From contig NZ_ATTE01000001.1 of assembly GCF_000419525.1 (NCBI RefSeq), positions 248,001 to 312,000 on the forward strand: a stretch of 64,000 bases of DNA, given 5' to 3'. Source of the stretch: Leucothrix mucor DSM 2157 (GTDB lineage: Bacteria > Pseudomonadota > Gammaproteobacteria > Thiotrichales > Thiotrichaceae). Within the stretch, counting starts at the first letter, position 1. Each line of letters starts with the position of its first letter. The notes beneath the pieces were generated by a model that made no database searches, had not been told where the DNA came from, and worked only from the letters and a program-made list of their open reading frames with translations. The position numbers and the translations under genes are program-made. This document shows, one piece after another, positions 36,552 to 48,879 of the stretch.

Positions 36552-38048
36552 ATGCAATATTTTGCGTCTCGATGCCTGCTAAGTAGTGGTCTCGCATTAC
36601 TGTTAAGCGCTGGAGCGACTCAGGCAGATACCACCACAGCACTGTTGTCTCCTAAGCCTGCGCTAGCGCATCAAACCATCAATGAATCAACTCAGGCAGA
36701 GTTGCCGGAAGCGGTTTTGCAGTCGCTCAAAGAAAATAGAGTGCCGGCTGAAAATATCAGTATCTATGTTCGCGACCTGTACGCTGACCAAGCCATGTTG
36801 GCGCACAATGTCGACCTAATACGGGCACCGGCATCCACTATCAAGTTAGTCACTACCTATGCGGCACTCAAGCAGCTTGGGCCAAATTATGCCTGGCGTA
36901 CCGAAGCGTGGCTGCGCGGTAGCTTGCAGGATGGCGTTTTGGATGGTGATTTGATTTTAAAAGGCTATGGCGACCCGTTTTTAGTCTATGAGCGCTTTTG
37001 GAAGTTTCTTCACGAGCTTCGGGAGCAAGGCTTACAGCAGATCAATGGCGATATTATCATTGATAATCAGTACTTTGATATTCCAGAGCATGATCCCGGT
37101 GCGTTCGATGGCCAGAGCTATAACGTGTATAATGCAGGTCCATCACCTTTGATGTTCAACTTTCAGGCATCTCGCATCTTAATAAAGGCCTCGGCGGATG
37201 AAGCAGCCACCCAGCCGGATGTGATGTTGGAGCCGGCATCCTCTCAAGCGATAGACAATCGGGTGACTTTGGTACAAGGGCGTTGTAAGCGAATGCATAG
37301 CCGACCTAAATTAAGTCGCGATGCGGATGGTCGGTTGGTTGTCGAAGGCAGTTTTTCCAAGAGCTGCGAACCACAGTCTATAATGCGCGTAGTCTCTGAG
37401 CCTGATCAGCATGTGTTCGATGCATTTACTGAGTTCTGGGCTGACTTAGGCGGGAGCTTGGGTGGCGGGCTTGAAATTGGACGAGTGACTGAAACCGACG
37501 AACTTTTTCATACGTACGCGTCACCTACCTTAGCCGAGCAAATTCGCTTGATTAATAAGTGGAGTAACAACGTGATGACCCGGCAGCTGATGTTGACTGT
37601 CGGAGCCAATCGTTTTGGTGCGCCAGCGACGTTGGATAAAGGGCGTAAGGCTGTGTTGGAGATCTTGCAAGAGCAGGGAATTGATACACAGGGAATCGTG
37701 ATTGATAATGGCTCCGGCTTGTCGAGAAATACAAGAATTTCGGCACGACAGATGGCACAATTGCTGGAGACGGCTTATCGGGATGCGTTTATGCCTGAGT
37801 TTATGTCGTCCCTATCGGTTCCAGGGCTTGATGGAACACTGGTATCACGGTTTAGAAAAGAAGATATGGCGGGGCGTAGCCATTTAAAAACCGGAACATT
37901 GAATTACGTGACAGCAATTTCTGGCTACATGCTTAATCGTCAAGGACGGCGTTTAGTCATCGTCATACAACAAAATGGCCCTCGTGCTTCGGCAGCGGTG
38001 GGCGCTAAGATTCAGGATGAAATACTGCGTTGGGCATTTGAACAATAA
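36552..38048 (+). CDS. dacB: D-Ala-D-Ala carboxypeptidase/endopeptidase (PBP4)
   Basis: A 498-residue class C penicillin-binding protein with a signal peptide ending near residue 25 (TQA/DTT). The three active-site motifs are SxxK (Ser95-Lys98, in APASTIK), SxN (Ser338-Asn340) and KTG (446-448). Domains II and III are inserted between SxxK and SxN, which distinguishes PBP4 from PBP5. It trims and opens peptide cross-links in peptidoglycan. It sits between trmO and tamA. Confidence 0.94.
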   Translation: MQYFASRCLLSSGLALLLSAGATQADTTTALLSPKPALAHQTINESTQAELPEAVLQSLKENRVPAENISIYVRDLYADQAMLAHNVDLIRAPASTIKLVTTYAALKQLGPNYAWRTEAWLRGSLQDGVLDGDLILKGYGDPFLVYERFWKFLHELREQGLQQINGDIIIDNQYFDIPEHDPGAFDGQSYNVYNAGPSPLMFNFQASRILIKASADEAATQPDVMLEPASSQAIDNRVTLVQGRCKRMHSRPKLSRDADGRLVVEGSFSKSCEPQSIMRVVSEPDQHVFDAFTEFWADLGGSLGGGLEIGRVTETDELFHTYASPTLAEQIRLINKWSNNVMTRQLMLTVGANRFGAPATLDKGRKAVLEILQEQGIDTQGIVIDNGSGLSRNTRISARQMAQLLETAYRDAFMPEFMSSLSVPGLDGTLVSRFRKEDMAGRSHLKTGTLNYVTAISGYMLNRQGRRLVIVIQQNGPRASAAVGAKIQDEILRWAFEQ

Positions 38049-38086: not shown

Positions 38087-39844
38087 ATGTTGGTCAAAAC
38101 AATTGTACGTCGTACACCCGTTATTGCTGGTTTAATCGTGTTTATTTCTGCAGCATCGGTCTTTGCTGCTGAGAGTAAACCGCTAGCCAAGCTGACTATT
38201 AGCGGCGTCAGTGGCGACCTCAAAGAAGGGCTGGAAAGACACCTGCCCGTTAATATGCCTGAATGTACGGCCTCTAAAGAAACGGTCAGCGACTATTTCC
38301 GAACGCTGAAAACTAGCTTAGTCAAAGGTGGTCGGGCACTTGGTTACTACAATGCCGAGTACACAACGGGCGGAAAGGTAGTTGAGAACTGCTGGCAACT
38401 GACCATGGCGATAAAGCCGGGCGAGCCGGTGCGCGTTGTGAGCCAATTAATCGAAGTAGTTGGCTCGGGGTCGAATGATAGGCCGTTTATCAATGCCATG
38501 CGCACACCACCTTATCAGCAGGGTGACGTTCTCAATCATCAACTGTATACCGACTTTAAAGATAATTTAACCGATGTTGCGGAGTCACGTGGCTATCTGG
38601 ATGCGGTCTATGAGCAGCATGCGCTGACTGTTGATCCGGAGACTAATCAGGCCCGCGTAAATTTGGTTTTAAACACCGGCCCGCGTTACACCTTTGGCGA
38701 TATCAAGATTGAACAGGATGTTATCAGTGATCGCTTGATGACGCGCTTTATCAAAATAAAACCGGGTACGCCTTATAGTACTAATGGCGTGCTTGAGCAG
38801 CAGCAAATTCTACAAAAAAGTGGCTACTATTCTGATGTCATCGTGAATGTCAATATTAAGAATGCCAAAAACCAGCAAGTGCCGGTGAGTATCAAATTAA
38901 CACGCGCAAAGCGTGACAAGCTTAAGTTTACTTTAGGTTATGGTACCGATACGGGAGCGCGTGTTAAGACCGAGGCGTTACGCCGATTTACCGGCTCAAA
39001 GGGCCGCAGCGTTGAGGCCAAAGCACAGTGGGCTGAAACCCTATCCAAAATCGAACTTAAGCTAATCGAGCCGCGTGAAAACCCTGATTATGATGCGCTG
39101 AGCTACATGATCGACTGGACTTATGACACGGCTAACGATGTCGACAGTGCGAGTATCACTTTGGGTGCAGAGTACAAGCGCAAGTTGAGCAGTAACTGGG
39201 AGCAAGCCATTTTTATTAATGCGCTCATGGACCGAACTAGCAGTAATGGTAGCGATACTGATAGCTCCTATCTAACCTTGGTCGGTGGACGCTTGTCTAA
39301 AACAAAAACCAATAGTGAGAAATTCGCGAGCTCTGGTTGGAGTGTTTATATGCAAGCTCAGGCGGCAGTTGATAATTTGCTGAGTGACCAGAGCATTTCG
39401 CAGTTTGAATTTAAATCCAAGTATATTTTCCCGTTTGGTAAAGGGCGCTTGGTTAATCGTCTCGACTTAGGGCTTACCAGCGCCGGAGATCTTGAGGATT
39501 TACCTAAGAGTCTGCGTTTCTTTGCCGGTGGTGGAAGCAGTGTGCGTGGTTACGACTTTGAATCAATTGGTGAAGAAAACAGTTCTGGCTCGGTGATTGG
39601 TGGTAAGAACTTGTTAGTGGGCAGTTTGGAATACGAACACCCGATTAAAGATGCCTGGAGTATTGCCGCCTTTATTGATGCGGGTGATGCTTTTAATGAG
39701 TGGAATGACATTGATCTGGAGATTGGTGTTGGTTTTGGTGGGCGCTATCGCTCACCAATTGGACCTGTTCGGGTTGACGTAGGCTTTCCTGAAGGCCGAG
39801 TGGGGGATGCAACGTTTCACTTAAGTGTTGGGCCTGATCTGTGA
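38087..39844 (+). CDS. tamA: Translocation and assembly module outer-membrane protein TamA
   Basis: A 585-residue Omp85-family protein. A signal peptide ends near residue 28. Three POTRA domains cover about 30-275. A 16-strand barrel fills the rest, with the VRGYDFE motif (residues about 487-493) of barrel loop 6 and the VDVGFP-containing final strands. TamA works with TamB to place some outer-membrane proteins and to move lipids between membranes. It overlaps tamB by 4 bases (GTGA). Length fits the family (577 in E. coli). Confidence 0.95.
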   Translation: MLVKTIVRRTPVIAGLIVFISAASVFAAESKPLAKLTISGVSGDLKEGLERHLPVNMPECTASKETVSDYFRTLKTSLVKGGRALGYYNAEYTTGGKVVENCWQLTMAIKPGEPVRVVSQLIEVVGSGSNDRPFINAMRTPPYQQGDVLNHQLYTDFKDNLTDVAESRGYLDAVYEQHALTVDPETNQARVNLVLNTGPRYTFGDIKIEQDVISDRLMTRFIKIKPGTPYSTNGVLEQQQILQKSGYYSDVIVNVNIKNAKNQQVPVSIKLTRAKRDKLKFTLGYGTDTGARVKTEALRRFTGSKGRSVEAKAQWAETLSKIELKLIEPRENPDYDALSYMIDWTYDTANDVDSASITLGAEYKRKLSSNWEQAIFINALMDRTSSNGSDTDSSYLTLVGGRLSKTKTNSEKFASSGWSVYMQAQAAVDNLLSDQSISQFEFKSKYIFPFGKGRLVNRLDLGLTSAGDLEDLPKSLRFFAGGGSSVRGYDFESIGEENSSGSVIGGKNLLVGSLEYEHPIKDAWSIAAFIDAGDAFNEWNDIDLEIGVGFGGRYRSPIGPVRVDVGFPEGRVGDATFHLSVGPDL

Positions 39845-42800
39845 AGTCTCCAATTAGTGATTATCTGTTTTCGCCACTGGTTTGGATTCAGATAGTACTG
39901 CTTTTTTTACTGATGACCTTGTTGGCGTTGTTACTCACGCCACTCGGCCCATTGTTGGGCGCATGGACAGCTACTACGCTGGTTAAAGAGCTAACCATCG
40001 AAGGGGTGAGCGGTAGTCTGCTAAGCGAGGTCAAAGTCGAGAAACTCGAGTGGCGCGATGGTGATGTAACAACGCTCAATAACATCACGTTGGAACCCGG
40101 TCAGCAGGATTTCAGTAGTAGCGGTATTAGAATTAAAACCCTGAATGTTGACTCCTTACAGCTAGCGTTGGCAGAAGGTACTCCCGCGCGTCCGCGTGGC
40201 GAAAAGGTTGATATTGGTGATTTTGGTATTGACCCGCTCAATCTATTTGTAGAGTCAGGCAAGCTTGGTCAATTTCTGGTAACCGAAGGCGAGACTAACT
40301 TATTTGAATTGTCGGATGTCAGCTTGGATGGCACCGAAATTGTTGATAATAAAATCAGTCTGAAAGACGTTAGTGCGCAGATGACGATGGACCCTGAGCC
40401 GATTGCTTTAACGGTCTCATCATTTAGCATGGACATGTTAGAGCCTCACGCAATGGCCGTGCAGGCAAATGCTCAGTGGCAGCATCCTGATATTGGCAAA
40501 ATCAATGCGGACGTGGTTGGCGGAGGCTTCCTGCAAGCCTATACGCTAGATATCAAAGGCGATATCGATAATCCCGATGTTGGCAAACAATCATTCAGTG
40601 CGCTCGGAAAGGGTGACTTTGACTTTATTGATATCAGCGCACTGAATTTGGATAGTGACAGCGGCAGCATGACCGCCACCGGCGAATTAGCTTGGGTGCC
40701 GGATGTCTCTATTGACCTGGATGTTGATGCTAAGTCATTTAACACCACGCAGTTTACTCCAGAGTGGCCTGCTGAGCTAACCGGTAAAGTGAAGCTTAAA
40801 GTCGCTATTCAGCAGGATAAGTTACGTGGTGCGCTGGATATTGTAACGTTGAACGGTAAAGTGCGTGGTTATCCGTTCTCTGGTAGTGGCCAAGTGTCAT
40901 TACTGGATGATGATTTTCAGTTTAAAAATTTACAACTGGTTGCTTCTGGCAATCGGGTGAATGTGAATGGGCAAGCCAGCGAGCCGTTTGACTTAAGCTG
41001 GGAAGTAGATGCTAAAAATATATCCAAACTAGCGCTTGGCATTGATGGCAGTGTGACGGCCAATGGAACGCTGACCGGTAGTGTGGCGAACCCAATTTTA
41101 AACGGTAAGCTACGTGCCAATCGACTAGCATTCCAAGGGCAGCGTTTAGAGTCTGCTCAGGCAGATATCAGAACGGCTGATGGTCAATATTTCCTGGATG
41201 GCAAGTTGCAAGGTTTGCTGGTGAATGGCGAGCGCTTTAGTAGCGCAACCGTAGTTGGTCGTGGTGATGTTGATAAGCATGAAGTCGATTTATCGGTTAA
41301 TCATGCCCAAGCCAAGCTTAAAGCTTCGTTAGAAGGCGCATGGCTGGGTCAGGAATGGCAAGGTACTTTAAAATCCACCAATATCAGCGATACTGCCGTG
41401 GGCAGTTGGCGTTTATCAAAGCCTGCGAAGTTAACGGTTTCCGCTGAGGGCTTTAGTGGCGATGAGATTTGTTTGGAATCTAGAGATGGTAAAGCATGCT
41501 CGCTTGCCAATTACTCAACCCAAGATGGACTTAAAGCCTCAGGGAATCTAAGTGGTGCGCCGTTGCAATGGATTAATCCATTTTTACCTGAAACGCTGGC
41601 GGTTAAAGGTCGTGTTGGTGGTGACTACGCGGTTACCTTAAACCCTGAATTAAAAGGCAGTGCTAATCTGCAATTCCAGCCGGGCGAAGTAGCCGTCACT
41701 CAAGATGGCAAGGTTCAACGTTTTGCCTATCGCCAAGGGATGCTAAAAGCGGAGATTGATGGCAATAATATCGATGCAGAAACCAGCTTTAATCTTGCGG
41801 ATGACGGTTTGTTGTCGGCGACTGCTGCAGTCAAGTTATCACCCGCAGACGGCAATCATGAGATCAATGCGCAAGGCGAATTTAAAGCGGTTCCACTCCA
41901 GTTAGCGCAAACGTTCTTACCTGAAGAGTTGGGTTTGTCCGGCAAAATAGATGGCAATTTTGATGTTGTTCAAAATGGCAGTGGGCGCTCTGGAAAAGTA
42001 AAAATTAACAGTACGGATGTCCAGCTCGCCTATAACGATGCGGAGTATGGCAATCAGCGCTATCGCTTTAACCAGCTGGCAGTTGATGCCACCTTGAATG
42101 GCGATAATGTGGTTGCAGAAGCACAGTTAGCTTTGCGAGATGGTGGAAGTTTCAGTGGGCGCGCTTCAGTTGACTTGAGCAAGCCAGATTTGGTGAAATC
42201 AGTCACCTCCGATGGAAAATTCAATGCGATGCCACTGGCATTAGCAAGGCCCTATTTACCGCCCGATGTGGGTGTGGATGGCTTGATTAGTGGTGAGTAC
42301 TCCGTGCGACAAGAAGCGGCAGGCACCGTTGGCCGGGTCGATATCGCCTCTAATAATGGTAGCTTCAGTTATAAAGCCGAGGGCAGTAGTCGCCAAACCT
42401 ATGCTTATACCAGCGCCAAGGTGCAAGCCACCATTCAAGGCGATACAGTACAGGCAGATGCCTCATTAGAATTAAAAGATGGTGGCTCTCTAACGACTCG
42501 TGTTGGTGTTGATCTCTCAGTTCCAAATAAAGCCACTGCAATCACCGCAGAGGGTACGGTTAAAGATATGCCAATGCTGTTGGCGCAGGCATTTATGCCA
42601 GAAGGTCTAACGCTAAATGGGCGTATCAATGGTCGTTATCAAATACAGCAGCAGGGAACTACAAAAGGCACCGTTAACCTTACCTTCCCAGCGGGCTCGG
42701 TTCGTTATGATGACGGAACCAATGGCGCTCAAACCTATGAATATCGGCAAGCTGAAGTTAATGCCGAAATTAACGGGGATGATGTGGTTGCCGATGCGCA

Positions 42801-44808
42801 ATTTGTTCTGCGTGATGGCGGCACCTTTAGCGGTAAAGGGCGTTTAAACTTATCCAAAGCTGACAATTTGTACGACTTTGAAGGTGAGGGTCAGTTAAGC
42901 GCCTTGCCTCTCTCTTTAGCTGAGCCTTACATTCCCGCTGGGATTCGTTTCAGTGGCGCGGTGAATGGTAGCTATCAATTATCACAGCGCGGTGGGCAAC
43001 AGGGGCAAATTAAACTAACTCTACCTGCCAGCAGCGTCAGCATTACTGATGCCAGTGGCAAGCTACAGCGCTTTGCTTATGAGACCAGCAAAATCACTGC
43101 GGTCGTCAAAGGCTCTGCGATTACGGCGGATGCGCGCTTAGTGTTGAAAGACGGTGGCGTGCTGACCAGCAATGCGAATGTCACGCTGGGCGCTAGCATG
43201 AAAGATCATCGTATTAATGTTGAGGGACAGCTAATTGCTGTGCCATTGGCCTTAGCCGCACCGTATTTAAGTGAAGATGTATCGTTCCCCGGTAAGGTGA
43301 ATGGCAATTACAACTTTGCGCAAGTCGGTGGTCGCCAAACCGGAAAAGTTAGTCTGAATCTGCCGAATAGCTATTTCAGTATTTTGACGCAGTCTGGTGA
43401 TCAGCAGCCATTTCCATATGAAAATGGCTTGTTAAATGCCACGATTGATGGCGACCGCATCAATATCGATACCTCACTGATCTTTAAAAACCGTGGTGAT
43501 TTACGGGCGAGTGCGCAGGTAACGCTGCAGAAAACAGGGTCTCCGCTAATCAATGGTAATTTGGATATTAATATCCCGAACATTTACTGGGCGCAAGCTT
43601 ATGTGCCATACAGCCGCGGACTGCGTGGCGAAGTGGTCGGAAAGGTTAGCTTTAGCGGCACGGTGGATAACCCTCGGGTTGTGGGTCGGGTTGATTACCG
43701 AAATGGTTACTTGCGATTGCCGCAGGTGGGAACTGAGCTCACGGATATAACTTTAAGCATCCAGACCAACCGGGCGAATGAGGCGGTCATAACCGGTAGT
43801 ATGATCTCCGATGGTGGAATTATCCGAGCCAATGGCAGCATGTCACTGGCAGATATTAAAAACTGGTCTGCAAAAATGAGCTTAGTAGGTGAGAACGTCA
43901 AGTTTGTTGATACCTTTGAAGCCAAAGCGTATATGACGCCTAACTTACAGATTACTGCGGGTCCGCAAGCGATTGTCATTACCGGCACAGTGGATATTCC
44001 CAAGGCTGATATCAATCTGAAAGATTTACCAGAGCTTAGTATTGATGAGTCTGATGATGCGATTGTTGTGGGTGAAAAAGGCGCTTCTGATACCATTAAT
44101 GCCGTTAAGGTGCAGCCCAATATTCTGGTGCGCTTAGGCAATGATGTACGCTTTAAGGGCTTTGGCTTTGCAACGCGCCTGAGTGGCTCTCTGCGCATTA
44201 CTAATAGCCGGAATACCATTGTGACCAATGGGTCGCTATTTATCATTGACGGGCGTTACCAGGCCTATGGTCAGGATCTAAAGATCGATTACGGACGTTT
44301 AGTGTTTAATGGTCCGCCTAAAAATGTGGGTGTGGACGTAAAAGCAGTGCGTGAAGTGGAAAGCGGTGAAGTGGGTATTCAATTATCTGGAACTCTGCAA
44401 CGACTGACTTCAACGATTTTCTCCAATCCAGCCATGGAAGAAACCGATGCGCTGAGTTACCTGCTAACAGGACACAGCTTGTCGACAGCGACTGGTCGTG
44501 AGACCGCATTATTAATGCAGGCAGTGCGTGGCTTTGGTATTGATGGTAGCGATGGTCTGATTCAGCGATTAGGTAACTCACTGGGCTTGGATGACCTGAG
44601 CATTGTGACCAAGGAAGACTTTAAGGAAAGTGAATTGCAGCTGGGTAAGCGCTTAGGCTCAAAGCTTTATGTGCGTTACTTGGTTGGTTTGTTTGATTCA
44701 GCCCACCGACTTGCGGTGGACTATAAAATCAACAAATTCCTAAATCTTGAGGTACAGGTTGGTGAAGAGCAGAGTGTGGATTTAATCTATCAGATCGAAA
44801 TGAACTGA
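39841..44808 (+). CDS. tamB: Translocation and assembly module protein TamB (enlarged)
   Basis: A 1655-residue AsmA-like bridge protein starting at GTG, overlapping tamA. One N-terminal membrane helix lies at about residues 12-35, and the rest is periplasmic beta-rich sequence. The conserved DUF490 end contains RLGNDVRFKGFG, the DALSYLLTG motif and the LGKRLGSKLYVRYLVG tail that contacts TamA. E. coli TamB has 1259 residues, so this one is about 400 longer. The extra length matches a block of 112-residue repeats (568 to about 1240). TamB-type grooves shuttle phospholipid between membranes, so a longer groove could mean a wider periplasm (inference). Confidence 0.95.
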   Translation: MKSPISDYLFSPLVWIQIVLLFLLMTLLALLLTPLGPLLGAWTATTLVKELTIEGVSGSLLSEVKVEKLEWRDGDVTTLNNITLEPGQQDFSSSGIRIKTLNVDSLQLALAEGTPARPRGEKVDIGDFGIDPLNLFVESGKLGQFLVTEGETNLFELSDVSLDGTEIVDNKISLKDVSAQMTMDPEPIALTVSSFSMDMLEPHAMAVQANAQWQHPDIGKINADVVGGGFLQAYTLDIKGDIDNPDVGKQSFSALGKGDFDFIDISALNLDSDSGSMTATGELAWVPDVSIDLDVDAKSFNTTQFTPEWPAELTGKVKLKVAIQQDKLRGALDIVTLNGKVRGYPFSGSGQVSLLDDDFQFKNLQLVASGNRVNVNGQASEPFDLSWEVDAKNISKLALGIDGSVTANGTLTGSVANPILNGKLRANRLAFQGQRLESAQADIRTADGQYFLDGKLQGLLVNGERFSSATVVGRGDVDKHEVDLSVNHAQAKLKASLEGAWLGQEWQGTLKSTNISDTAVGSWRLSKPAKLTVSAEGFSGDEICLESRDGKACSLANYSTQDGLKASGNLSGAPLQWINPFLPETLAVKGRVGGDYAVTLNPELKGSANLQFQPGEVAVTQDGKVQRFAYRQGMLKAEIDGNNIDAETSFNLADDGLLSATAAVKLSPADGNHEINAQGEFKAVPLQLAQTFLPEELGLSGKIDGNFDVVQNGSGRSGKVKINSTDVQLAYNDAEYGNQRYRFNQLAVDATLNGDNVVAEAQLALRDGGSFSGRASVDLSKPDLVKSVTSDGKFNAMPLALARPYLPPDVGVDGLISGEYSVRQEAAGTVGRVDIASNNGSFSYKAEGSSRQTYAYTSAKVQATIQGDTVQADASLELKDGGSLTTRVGVDLSVPNKATAITAEGTVKDMPMLLAQAFMPEGLTLNGRINGRYQIQQQGTTKGTVNLTFPAGSVRYDDGTNGAQTYEYRQAEVNAEINGDDVVADAQFVLRDGGTFSGKGRLNLSKADNLYDFEGEGQLSALPLSLAEPYIPAGIRFSGAVNGSYQLSQRGGQQGQIKLTLPASSVSITDASGKLQRFAYETSKITAVVKGSAITADARLVLKDGGVLTSNANVTLGASMKDHRINVEGQLIAVPLALAAPYLSEDVSFPGKVNGNYNFAQVGGRQTGKVSLNLPNSYFSILTQSGDQQPFPYENGLLNATIDGDRINIDTSLIFKNRGDLRASAQVTLQKTGSPLINGNLDINIPNIYWAQAYVPYSRGLRGEVVGKVSFSGTVDNPRVVGRVDYRNGYLRLPQVGTELTDITLSIQTNRANEAVITGSMISDGGIIRANGSMSLADIKNWSAKMSLVGENVKFVDTFEAKAYMTPNLQITAGPQAIVITGTVDIPKADINLKDLPELSIDESDDAIVVGEKGASDTINAVKVQPNILVRLGNDVRFKGFGFATRLSGSLRITNSRNTIVTNGSLFIIDGRYQAYGQDLKIDYGRLVFNGPPKNVGVDVKAVREVESGEVGIQLSGTLQRLTSTIFSNPAMEETDALSYLLTGHSLSTATGRETALLMQAVRGFGIDGSDGLIQRLGNSLGLDDLSIVTKEDFKESELQLGKRLGSKLYVRYLVGLFDSAHRLAVDYKINKFLNLEVQVGEEQSVDLIYQIEMN
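41542..43890 (+). repeat. Seven imperfect 112-residue repeats inside TamB
   Basis: Repeat units begin at residues 568, 679, 792, 905, 1017, 1129 and 1239 of TamB, that is at bases 41542, 41875, 42214, 42553, 42889, 43225 and 43555. Spacing is 110-113 residues each time. A typical unit starts G-x-L-x-A-x-P-L-x-L-A-x-P-Y, then L/I-P, then G-x-(I/V)-N/D-G-x-Y, then Q-x-G and a K-V-x-L-x-L-P strand. Units differ at the base level, so the duplications are old. The last unit (GNLDINIPNIYWAQAY) merges into the conserved TamB end. Confidence 0.85.
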
Positions 44809-47175: not shown

Positions 47176-47193
47176 CGAAATGATTTGAGGACT

Positions 47194-47667
47194 ATGCGAA
47201 TAATGAAACGTAGAACATTTTTAAGAAATACCCTGGCGGTGAGCGCAGCGGGTGCCGCATTGGGCACTGGCTTAGTAGCGCCTGGCGTTGCATTGGCAGA
47301 TGATGAGCCGGTGAATCCGTTTAAGGTCGGCACGTTGGAAGAAGCATTGAAAGCCGCTGGTGCCGAAGGCTATGAAGAGACTGATAAGGTTGTTGTAACC
47401 GCGCCTGATTTAGCCGAAAACGCAGCGGTTGTTCCTGTTGAAATATCATCTGAGCTGGAAGGCGTCACCGAGATTGTTATTTTGATTGCGAATAATCCAA
47501 CCCCTTATGCGGCAAAGTTTGCAATCGGCGAAGGGTCGGATGCATTGGTCAAGTGCCGCTTCAAAATGGGTGAGAGTAGTGATGTGATTGGCATTGTGAA
47601 AGCAGGCGATAAATATTACGGCGCTAAGAAGGCGGTTAAAGTAACTAAAGGCGGCTGCGGCGGTTAA
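47194..47667 (+). CDS. soxY: Thiosulfate carrier protein SoxY
   Basis: A 157-residue exported protein when started at the ATG at 47194 (another ATG is at 47203; an in-frame TTG at 47185 overlaps the GAGG site). The leader has a twin-arginine motif (KRRTFLRN), so export is by Tat, probably as a folded SoxYZ pair. The C-terminal GGCGG ending holds the cysteine that carries thiosulfate through the Sox cycle. soxX ends 18 bases before and soxZ starts 18 bases after. Confidence 0.95.
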   Translation: MRIMKRRTFLRNTLAVSAAGAALGTGLVAPGVALADDEPVNPFKVGTLEEALKAAGAEGYEETDKVVVTAPDLAENAAVVPVEISSELEGVTEIVILIANNPTPYAAKFAIGEGSDALVKCRFKMGESSDVIGIVKAGDKYYGAKKAVKVTKGGCGG

Positions 47668-47685
47668 GGGCTAAAGGAGTTTTTC

Positions 47686-48000
47686 ATGGCTAATGAATAT
47701 AAAACACGTCTGAAAGTGAAGCTTGAAGATGGCAAAGTAAATGTGAAAGCGATTATCTCTCATCCGATGATCACAGGTTTGACCAAAGATAAAAACGGCG
47801 AGACGATCCCTGCACATTTTATTAATGATGTGAAAGTCACAGCAAACGACAAGTTGATGATGAATGCCACTTGGGGCGTTGCAGTCTCTAAAAACCCTTA
47901 TATATCCTTTGATTATAAAGGTGAGTCTGGTGATGTGGTCAAGCTGTCATGGACGGATAATATGGGAAACACGGGTGGCGCTGAGGCAAAGGTTAAGTAA
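47686..48000 (+). CDS. soxZ: Sulfur-oxidation protein SoxZ
   Basis: A 104-residue immunoglobulin-like protein with no signal peptide, so it rides out with SoxY. RLKVKLEDGKVNVKAIISHPM and the VAVSKNPYISFDYKGESGD stretch are SoxZ signatures. It wraps the SoxY carrier. An AAAGGAG site lies before the ATG. It is intact and of usual length. Confidence 0.95.
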   Translation: MANEYKTRLKVKLEDGKVNVKAIISHPMITGLTKDKNGETIPAHFINDVKVTANDKLMMNATWGVAVSKNPYISFDYKGESGDVVKLSWTDNMGNTGGAEAKVK

Positions 48001-48033
48001 ATCCGTGTCAACGAAACATTGAGGGAATTGTCT

Positions 48034-48879
48034 ATGAAAAAAACAGCAATGACGACATTGGGATTACTGGCGTTGGGAGCAGGCTTTCTATTTGGCTCAG
48101 TGGCGAATGCGTCACCAGAGGAAGATCAAAAATCCTTCCAGACGTTTTTTAAGGAGCGCTTTGCCAGTACTGAGTTCAGTGATTTTCAGAATGGGGTTTA
48201 TTCTATCCATCCTGATTCTCGTAAGCAGTGGGAGTCTATTGAAGATTTTCCACCGTATGAGTTGGCTGTAGATCAAGGGCGTGAAATATGGGAAAAGCCG
48301 TTTGCGAATGGTAAAACGTATGCTGATTGCTTTGGCGGTGAGCTGTCTGAAATTCGTGCGCGTTATCCTTACTACAATGCTGAAAAAGATACCGTGCTGA
48401 CGCTGGAAGCCGATATCAACGATTGTCGCGAAGCAAATGGTGAAAAGCCTTTTGGCTGGAAAAAGGGCGCTATTGCTGAGCTATCTGCATTTATTGCCTA
48501 TGAGGGTCGTGGTAAGCCGGTGCAGGTGAAAATGCCTGAAACCGAAAAAGAACTGGCTTGGTATGATAAAGGTAAGCAGTTTTTCTATGCTAAACGCGGT
48601 CAACTGAATATGGCTTGCGCTGACTGTCATGTGTACTACTCTGGCAGAATGATTCGCTCAGAAACCTTGAGTCCTGCACTAGGTCATACGACTCATTTCC
48701 CCGTGTATCGCTCGAAATGGGGCAGTATGGGAACGTTGCACCGTCGCTATGCTGGTTGTAATGAAAACATTCGTGCCAAGTCGTTTAAAGCGCAGAGTGA
48801 TGAGTATCGTGCATTAGAATACTTCCAGACAATTATGTCTAACGGGCTTGCCTTTAATGGCCCGGGCGCACGTAAGTAA
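48034..48879 (+). CDS. soxA: Sulfur-oxidation cytochrome c SoxA (monohaem)
   Basis: A 281-residue protein started at the ATG at 48034 with GAGGG 8 bases upstream; an in-frame TTG at 48019 is discounted. A signal peptide covers about residues 1-25. One haem motif, CADCH, lies at 195-199. Cys242 (AGCNENIRAK) is the persulfide ligand and active-site cysteine. The N-terminal haem site of dihaem SoxA is absent; Cys99 and Cys131 remain and probably form a disulfide, as in other monohaem SoxA. It joins thiosulfate to SoxY together with SoxX. Confidence 0.94.
   Translation: MKKTAMTTLGLLALGAGFLFGSVANASPEEDQKSFQTFFKERFASTEFSDFQNGVYSIHPDSRKQWESIEDFPPYELAVDQGREIWEKPFANGKTYADCFGGELSEIRARYPYYNAEKDTVLTLEADINDCREANGEKPFGWKKGAIAELSAFIAYEGRGKPVQVKMPETEKELAWYDKGKQFFYAKRGQLNMACADCHVYYSGRMIRSETLSPALGHTTHFPVYRSKWGSMGTLHRRYAGCNENIRAKSFKAQSDEYRALEYFQTIMSNGLAFNGPGARK

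Follow-up and report, generated by a model that had tools for sequence, protein, structure and literature searches.

In the RBG bridges VPS13, ATG2 and their relatives, repeated beta units, each with about five strands plus a crossing segment, form a lipid groove whose length is set by the number of units. Of the envelope proteins compared below, YhdP is held to span the periplasm. The closest described counterpart of the protein treated here is Escherichia coli TamB, of the TAM complex, for which phospholipid transport between the membranes has been claimed from genetics (PMC8593681, PMC8912898) and which one report judges too short to bridge them alone (PMC6791001). A 2015 survey describes TamB length as relatively consistent, with only a few very long exceptions (PMC4494059). 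The question at stake is whether TamB-like bridges are matched to the membrane gap or whether lipids are handed on. The window analysed here, a stretch of 64,000 nucleotides from Leucothrix mucor DSM 2157 (contig NZ_ATTE01000001.1, positions 248,001-312,000), encodes a TamB of 1655 amino acids (aa) versus 1259 aa in E. coli K-12, both lengths being as given in the initial annotation of this DNA. The two proteins share the C-terminal domain, the N-terminal anchor and the tamA-tamB gene order, but the window TamB holds six copies of a 112-aa unit (module B) where E. coli TamB holds one. It would resemble the RBG bridges in its repeated-unit groove, which is predicted from sequence and models, and differs from them in that each unit has six predicted strands with one short helix and in that neighbouring units are similar in sequence. 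The lengthening of TamB by unit duplication is confirmed, and it is likely that module B duplication lengthened the TamAB bridge with unit number selected to match the periplasm span of the lineage.

Self-comparison of TamB aa 561-1340 gives peaks at lags of 112, 113, 224, 225 and 337, all above the 99% level of 500 shuffles, so that the expected periodic signal near 112 residues is present; aa 21-560 and 1341-1655 do not rise above their own 99% levels (500 shuffles). Six tandem units of 110-113 aa, starting at aa 568, 679, 792, 905, 1017 and 1129, span aa 568-1238 with pairwise identities of 24-41%. A profile built from these six scores them at 137-150 bits and scores the stretch from aa 1239, which the initial annotation had taken for the last of seven units 110-113 aa apart, at 7 bits; the array therefore counts six units, and a seventh would be no more than a distant relative. 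The window's copies are old, since the longest repeat left at the DNA level is one 78-nucleotide pair at 71%. The gene and its units are as follows.

39841..44808, plus strand: tamB, 1655 aa, GTG start, with an N-terminal hydrophobic anchor in the sequence
41542..41874, plus strand: module B unit 1 (aa 568-678), one-to-one orthologue in three congeners, support 1.0
41875..42213, plus strand: module B unit 2 (aa 679-791), support 0.989; modelled
42214..42552, plus strand: module B unit 3 (aa 792-904), relatives multiplied in congeners; modelled
42553..42888, plus strand: module B unit 4 (aa 905-1016), support 0.998; modelled
42889..43224, plus strand: module B unit 5 (aa 1017-1128), support 0.975; modelled
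43225..43554, plus strand: module B unit 6 (aa 1129-1238), support 1.0; the last before the C-terminal part
43555..43893, plus strand: proposed unit 7 (aa 1239-1351), a very weak match (7 bits) at the start of the C-terminal part

For comparison across the family, a single-protein query found no relative, and a profile search of genome contigs with a nine-sequence alignment (A2) yielded 37 named loci. Module B was counted at a threshold of 20 bits in 53 TamBs, some incomplete (the window's, that of E. coli and 51 from the window's family), giving 105 units in total. Exactly one copy is present in 43 of the 53, E. coli included (aa 729-840, 25.9 bits with the six-unit profile), and 3-11 copies in the other ten; a single unit is the ancestral state, being the number that these 43 proteins hold. 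Copy number varies in only two of the genera, which are labelled g1 to g8 here: g1 (Leucothrix, including L. pacifica, G003, and L. arctica, G006) has 6, 7, 7 and 8 units, and g8, whose named members are metagenome assemblies, has 3, 3, 4, 6, 7 and 11. In these ten multi-unit proteins length equals 980.8 + 112.6 n for n units (r 0.99996), and 982-990 aa remain after subtraction of 112 aa per unit. TamB has grown by repeats, as the initial annotation proposed, with two genera amplifying one ancestral unit; its further statement that the bridge lengthens in such unit steps holds for these two genera, and other genera use steps of 90-99 or 71 aa.

In the unit tree, all 34 g8 units group in a single clade (support 0.979), separate from that of the 24 g1 units other than the first ones (support 0.784), although the separation could alternatively reflect concerted evolution after one shared amplification. 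For window units 1, 2, 4, 5 and 6, every one of three congeners has a single orthologue (support 0.975-1.0), the count differences within g1 come from relatives of unit 3, and neighbouring units 3 and 4 are 74% identical in L. arctica and 66% in L. pacifica, so new units enter inside the array and the outer ones are retained. Three adjacent units of G052 (g8) are 95-98% identical, a recent expansion. The mechanism envisaged is that one complete segment of the groove, the 112-aa module B with its six predicted beta-strands, short helix and single hydrophobic face, would be tandemly duplicated to give a longer TamAB groove; in-frame recombination between copies would add or remove whole units inside the array and leave the sheet unbroken; and both ends, the membrane anchor and the TamA-binding C-terminus, would be kept.

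AlphaFold2 models were made of four window module B units and of five units of a second module (module A) from Thiolinea disciformis, with mean predicted local distance difference test (pLDDT) scores of 88.2 and 91.1, respectively. In both models each unit has six strands and one short helical segment. The mean difference in hydrophobicity between strand faces is 3.17 for module B (25 strands) and 2.99 for module A (29 strands), whereas shuffling within strands leaves 1.38 and 1.45, respectively (p 0.0005, the minimum for 2000 shuffles). The repeat region is predicted to be an amphipathic beta-sheet with one hydrophobic and one polar face, and this sheet is predicted, from strand counts and faces rather than from coordinates, to form the lipid groove, in which case lipids would run along the added segments. 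A four-unit profile matches E. coli TamB structure 9xdc at 731-872 (E 2e-7), and the E. coli module B copy lies inside the built part of that structure, described as residues 705-1169 with 24 strands and a U-shaped hydrophobic core (PMC12800296). Foldseek returned no match at E <= 0.001 for the module B model and returned ApoB-100 (E 6.8e-4) for module A. Among the matches listed by a second structural alignment for module B, ApoB-100 comes first (Z 11.7, root-mean-square deviation 13.0, 302 residues aligned), and TamB 9xdc is also present (Z 7.5, deviation 4.1, 170 aligned). Homology of the modules to RBG proteins was not shown by these fold searches.

Complete TamBs of the family, which consists of filamentous sulfur bacteria, range from 1017 to 2489 aa, and genera outside g1 and g8 have amplified other modules. 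A step of about 90 aa occurs in g6, g4, one of the two TamB types of g3, and g2, with up to 15 copies above 40 bits; the step is 95-101 aa in g5 and 96-99 aa in g7. These are versions of one module, held once or twice by the window TamB and E. coli TamB. The 90-aa module profile gives two weak matches on the window TamB (aa 287-375 and 376-447), and the 95-aa profile gives the following one.

40921..41190, plus strand: module A (aa 361-450; 51 bits, one match to the 95-aa profile), corresponding to the module that other genera have multiplied

For the 90-aa step, length rises by 91.5 aa per copy (r 0.998; 16 hand-chosen proteins, L059 left out), and the TamB of G008 has a 71-aa step with 13 matches, 10 of them above 70 bits. 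That different genera amplify different modules suggests that length itself is under selection. On contig C52:71286 of G008, whose TamB has 1954 aa, there is an AsmA-like frame of 1399 aa, the corresponding frames of four congeners having 956-984 aa (weak TIGR02099 matches). Three uncultured genomes, G015, G020 and G049 (L042, L043, L046, L047, L053, L054), contain a second tamA-tamB pair, and the two TamBs of a genome are unlike in length and in C-terminus type; each TamB of G015 and G020 adjoins a frame that is 600-639 aa long and ends in a TamA-like C-terminus, and the start of the second TamB of G049 is ambiguous.

The link to membrane distance was tested indirectly, by comparison with an unrelated bridge. 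PqiB is described as a hexameric lipid channel made up of a coiled-coil needle and three MCE rings; in E. coli it measures about 230 Å and is presumed to reach across the periplasm (PMC10897342). Its needle length was used as the proxy for membrane spacing. PqiB needles and TolA domain II, like TamB, belong to trans-envelope proteins of variable span, but are coiled coil or helix where TamB is a beta-groove. TamB and PqiB were usable in 44 of the 63 family genomes; genomes lacking a complete TamB or a PqiB were dropped, and so were L048, which lies at a contig end, L054 and L059, whose N-terminus is ambiguous or cut, and L063/L138 (G071), where the frame is broken. Across the 44, the MCE core is near-constant (416-437 aa) and the needle ranges from 122 to 294 aa. 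Needle lengths step by 7 or 18 aa in several genera, and helical periodicity exceeds z 3 in 51 of 54 needles; those of G052 and G061 (L093, L106) show visible tandem coiled-coil repeats, as if lengthened by a like duplication.

TamB length follows needle length closely (Pearson 0.869, Spearman 0.921), also in independent contrasts on a tree built from the PqiB core rather than a species tree (r 0.878, with a slope of 0.112 needle residues for each residue of TamB; of the contrasts, 30 agree in direction, 3 disagree and 10 are zero). The within-genus r is 0.92 (permutation p 5e-5, the minimum for 20,000 permutations), and the rank correlation is 1.0 within g1 (four genomes) and within g6 (six genomes). 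The contrasts r stays at 0.84-0.90 when any one genus is left out and is 0.89 in the 25 genomes assembled into no more than about 90 contigs; it is likewise 0.89 if the shorter TamBs of G015 and G020 replace the longer ones used here. At 0.15 nm per helix residue, the slope amounts to 0.015-0.017 nm for each TamB residue, so that a unit of 112 aa accounts for 1.7-1.9 nm (0.019 and 2.1 nm in the raw regression). E. coli TamB measured 150-200 Å by atomic force microscopy and light scattering (cited in PMC5719984); at 15-20 nm for 1259 aa this is 0.012-0.016 nm per residue and resembles the TamB/needle slope, an agreement that is unfitted. E. coli (TamB 1259, needle ~133, TolA 421 aa) groups with the short-TamB Thiothrix of g2 (G007: 1201 and 129 aa). 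Because PqiB, an unrelated bridge, changes length alongside TamB, unit number appears to be tied to membrane distance. Matching to that distance best explains the joint scaling but is not proven: selection would hold unit number to a bridge span equal to the periplasm of the lineage, with periplasm width as the presumed common cause. In E. coli, altered periplasm size was met by lengthening a spanning protein in work on RcsF (PMC5736177).

Other proteins were compared in the same way, the lengths of ZipA, IF-2, YhdP and TamA being mostly those of open frames rather than curated starts. In contrasts against TamB, the PqiB MCE core shows no correlation (r -0.18), and r is 0.06 for TamA (31 genomes), 0.12 for ZipA (42 genomes) and a non-significant 0.29 (p 0.08) for IF-2 in 38 genomes, a set that excludes G041, G049, G053 and G074 (short frames) and G023 and G063 (no full match). 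TolA was sought in 40 stretches, from which G003, G008, G009, G013 and G057 were dropped (no TolA, TonB-like or cut); G023, G049, G050 and G063 are excluded (cut or no match), and G041, which reaches a contig end, is kept. In the resulting 35 genomes TolA tracks TamB weakly (Pearson 0.68; contrasts r 0.46, p 0.006). One study notes that the length of TolA domain II in gammaproteobacteria typically far exceeds the width of the periplasm, and tentatively ties a weak TolA/TonB length correlation (0.28) to periplasm width (PMC12204202). Lpp was rejected as the width-setting spacer, none of the 63 family genomes having a match to it.

Several observations weigh against a match of TamB to membrane distance, above all against a strict ruler. 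YhdP length shows no relation to TamB length in contrasts over 16 genomes (r 0.02, against a raw r of 0.43 with p 0.09), and this lack of response counts against such a ruler, although clear YhdPs are confined to genera whose TamB is short and little varied; divergent YhdP-like frames give contrasts r 0.34 (p 0.37, nine genomes). TolA follows only weakly, its contrasts dividing into 16 concordant and 14 discordant, and the TolA of G053 is short, at 312 aa. IF-2, a control, weakly tracks the needle (contrasts r 0.34, p 0.036, 38 genomes). Two complete TamBs of different length coexist in G015 (1388 and 1165 aa) and G020 (1400 and 1167 aa). In g5 (six genomes, narrow range) needle and TamB are uncorrelated (r -0.12), and needle residues gained per TamB residue differ by genus, from -0.03 in g5 to 0.066-0.191 elsewhere. 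Outside the family, the comparison carries little information: TamB against PqiB gives r 0.24 (p 0.37) in 16 genomes of narrow range among the matches listed, which include G032 with its two TamB frames, and a non-significant 0.32 without G259, where the PqiB frame is odd at 782 aa. Class-wide, PqiB was found at E <= 1e-30 in 59 of 329 genomes, and none of the hand-picked long-TamB genomes outside the family (G307, G131, G190, G130, G135, G081, G242) is among these 59.

Of the other explanations, the one that survives best, though we regard it as unlikely, is compensation, in which loss of the sister bridges YhdP and YdbH left a larger TamB as the main bridge and length reflects capacity or new partners rather than distance. 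Its appeal lies in the distribution of the sisters: YdbH is present in none of the 63 family genomes, and clear YhdP matches (180-511 bits, none reaching the curated cut-off of 519) are found in only 19, all in the short-TamB genera (1017-1298 aa) g2 (16/16) and g7 (3/3), the best match in the other 44 scoring 35 bits. Lost bridges may have favoured a long TamB. However, compensation leaves the lengthening of the PqiB needle unexplained, TamB and needle co-vary within genera that have no clear YhdP (g1, g6, g8), and weak divergent YhdP-like matches with frames of about 1000 aa persist in g3 and g8. Neutral drift is less probable again: arrays would grow and shrink by recombination with no selection on length, and PqiB would follow through lineage-wide repeat expansion. 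The near-identical neighbouring units of G052 do indicate fast copy change, the needles of G052 and G061 look tandemly repeated, and the weak tracking of the needle by IF-2 points the same way, yet TamB and PqiB keep perfect rank order within g1 and g6, TamA, the MCE core and ZipA do not track, and the added units keep their amphipathic strands. That secreted or outer-membrane proteins dock on the extra units, which would then serve TAM as a protein assembly module and add no lipid path, is very improbable, given that modules of differing length and sequence serve in different genera and that PqiB, described as a lipid channel, scales along with TamB.

The assignment of the locus itself rests on both genes of the pair, tamA lying directly upstream of tamB.

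38087..39844, plus strand: tamA, 585 aa, four-base overlap with tamB, POTRA and Omp85 domains
43804..44799, plus strand: conserved C-terminal TamB domain (aa 1322-1653), best PF04357 stretch

PF04357 matches the TamB C-terminus at 209.7 bits (cut-off 22.4), and this domain resembles the solved E. coli TamB structures 9xdc, 23sp and 5vtg; the NCBI models NF047952 for TamB (651 bits, naming cut-off 825) and NF047950 for TamA (413 bits, naming cut-off 625) score below their naming cut-offs. The putative inner-membrane anchor is the hydrophobic stretch at about aa 14-36, read by eye. Just N-terminal of the array, cysteines at aa 544 and 553 (window 41470-41499) are invariant in alignment A2 and perhaps form a disulfide. 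The gene 5' of tamA (36552-38048) is a putative D-Ala-D-Ala carboxypeptidase, and the tam loci of G045 and G071 contain cut-off frames with a C-terminus similar to it. Two open reading frames with TTG starts at 47185-48879 are presumably the sulfur-oxidation genes soxY and soxA.

Among the open-licence papers listed by the literature searches, none deals with unit-step variation of TamB or with a length link between TamB and PqiB or TolA, and the titles and abstract openings searched gave no periplasm width for these genera. Calculated from needle lengths at 0.15 nm per needle residue, with E. coli PqiB (needle ~133 aa) at 23 nm (PMC10897342), predicted widths would be about 22-24 nm in Thiothrix caldifontis and T. 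lacustris, 31 nm in Thiolinea disciformis, 41 nm in the window's species and 47 nm in Leucothrix pacifica. With TamBs that naturally extend from 1017 to 2489 aa in known module steps, and an unrelated bridge that changes in parallel, the bridge idea can be tested through membrane spacing. The chances seem evenly balanced that periplasm width in the family varies about two-fold and that lineages refit their lipid bridges by whole modules; if this is true, TamB unit number and PqiB needle length would allow membrane spacing to be read from the genome.
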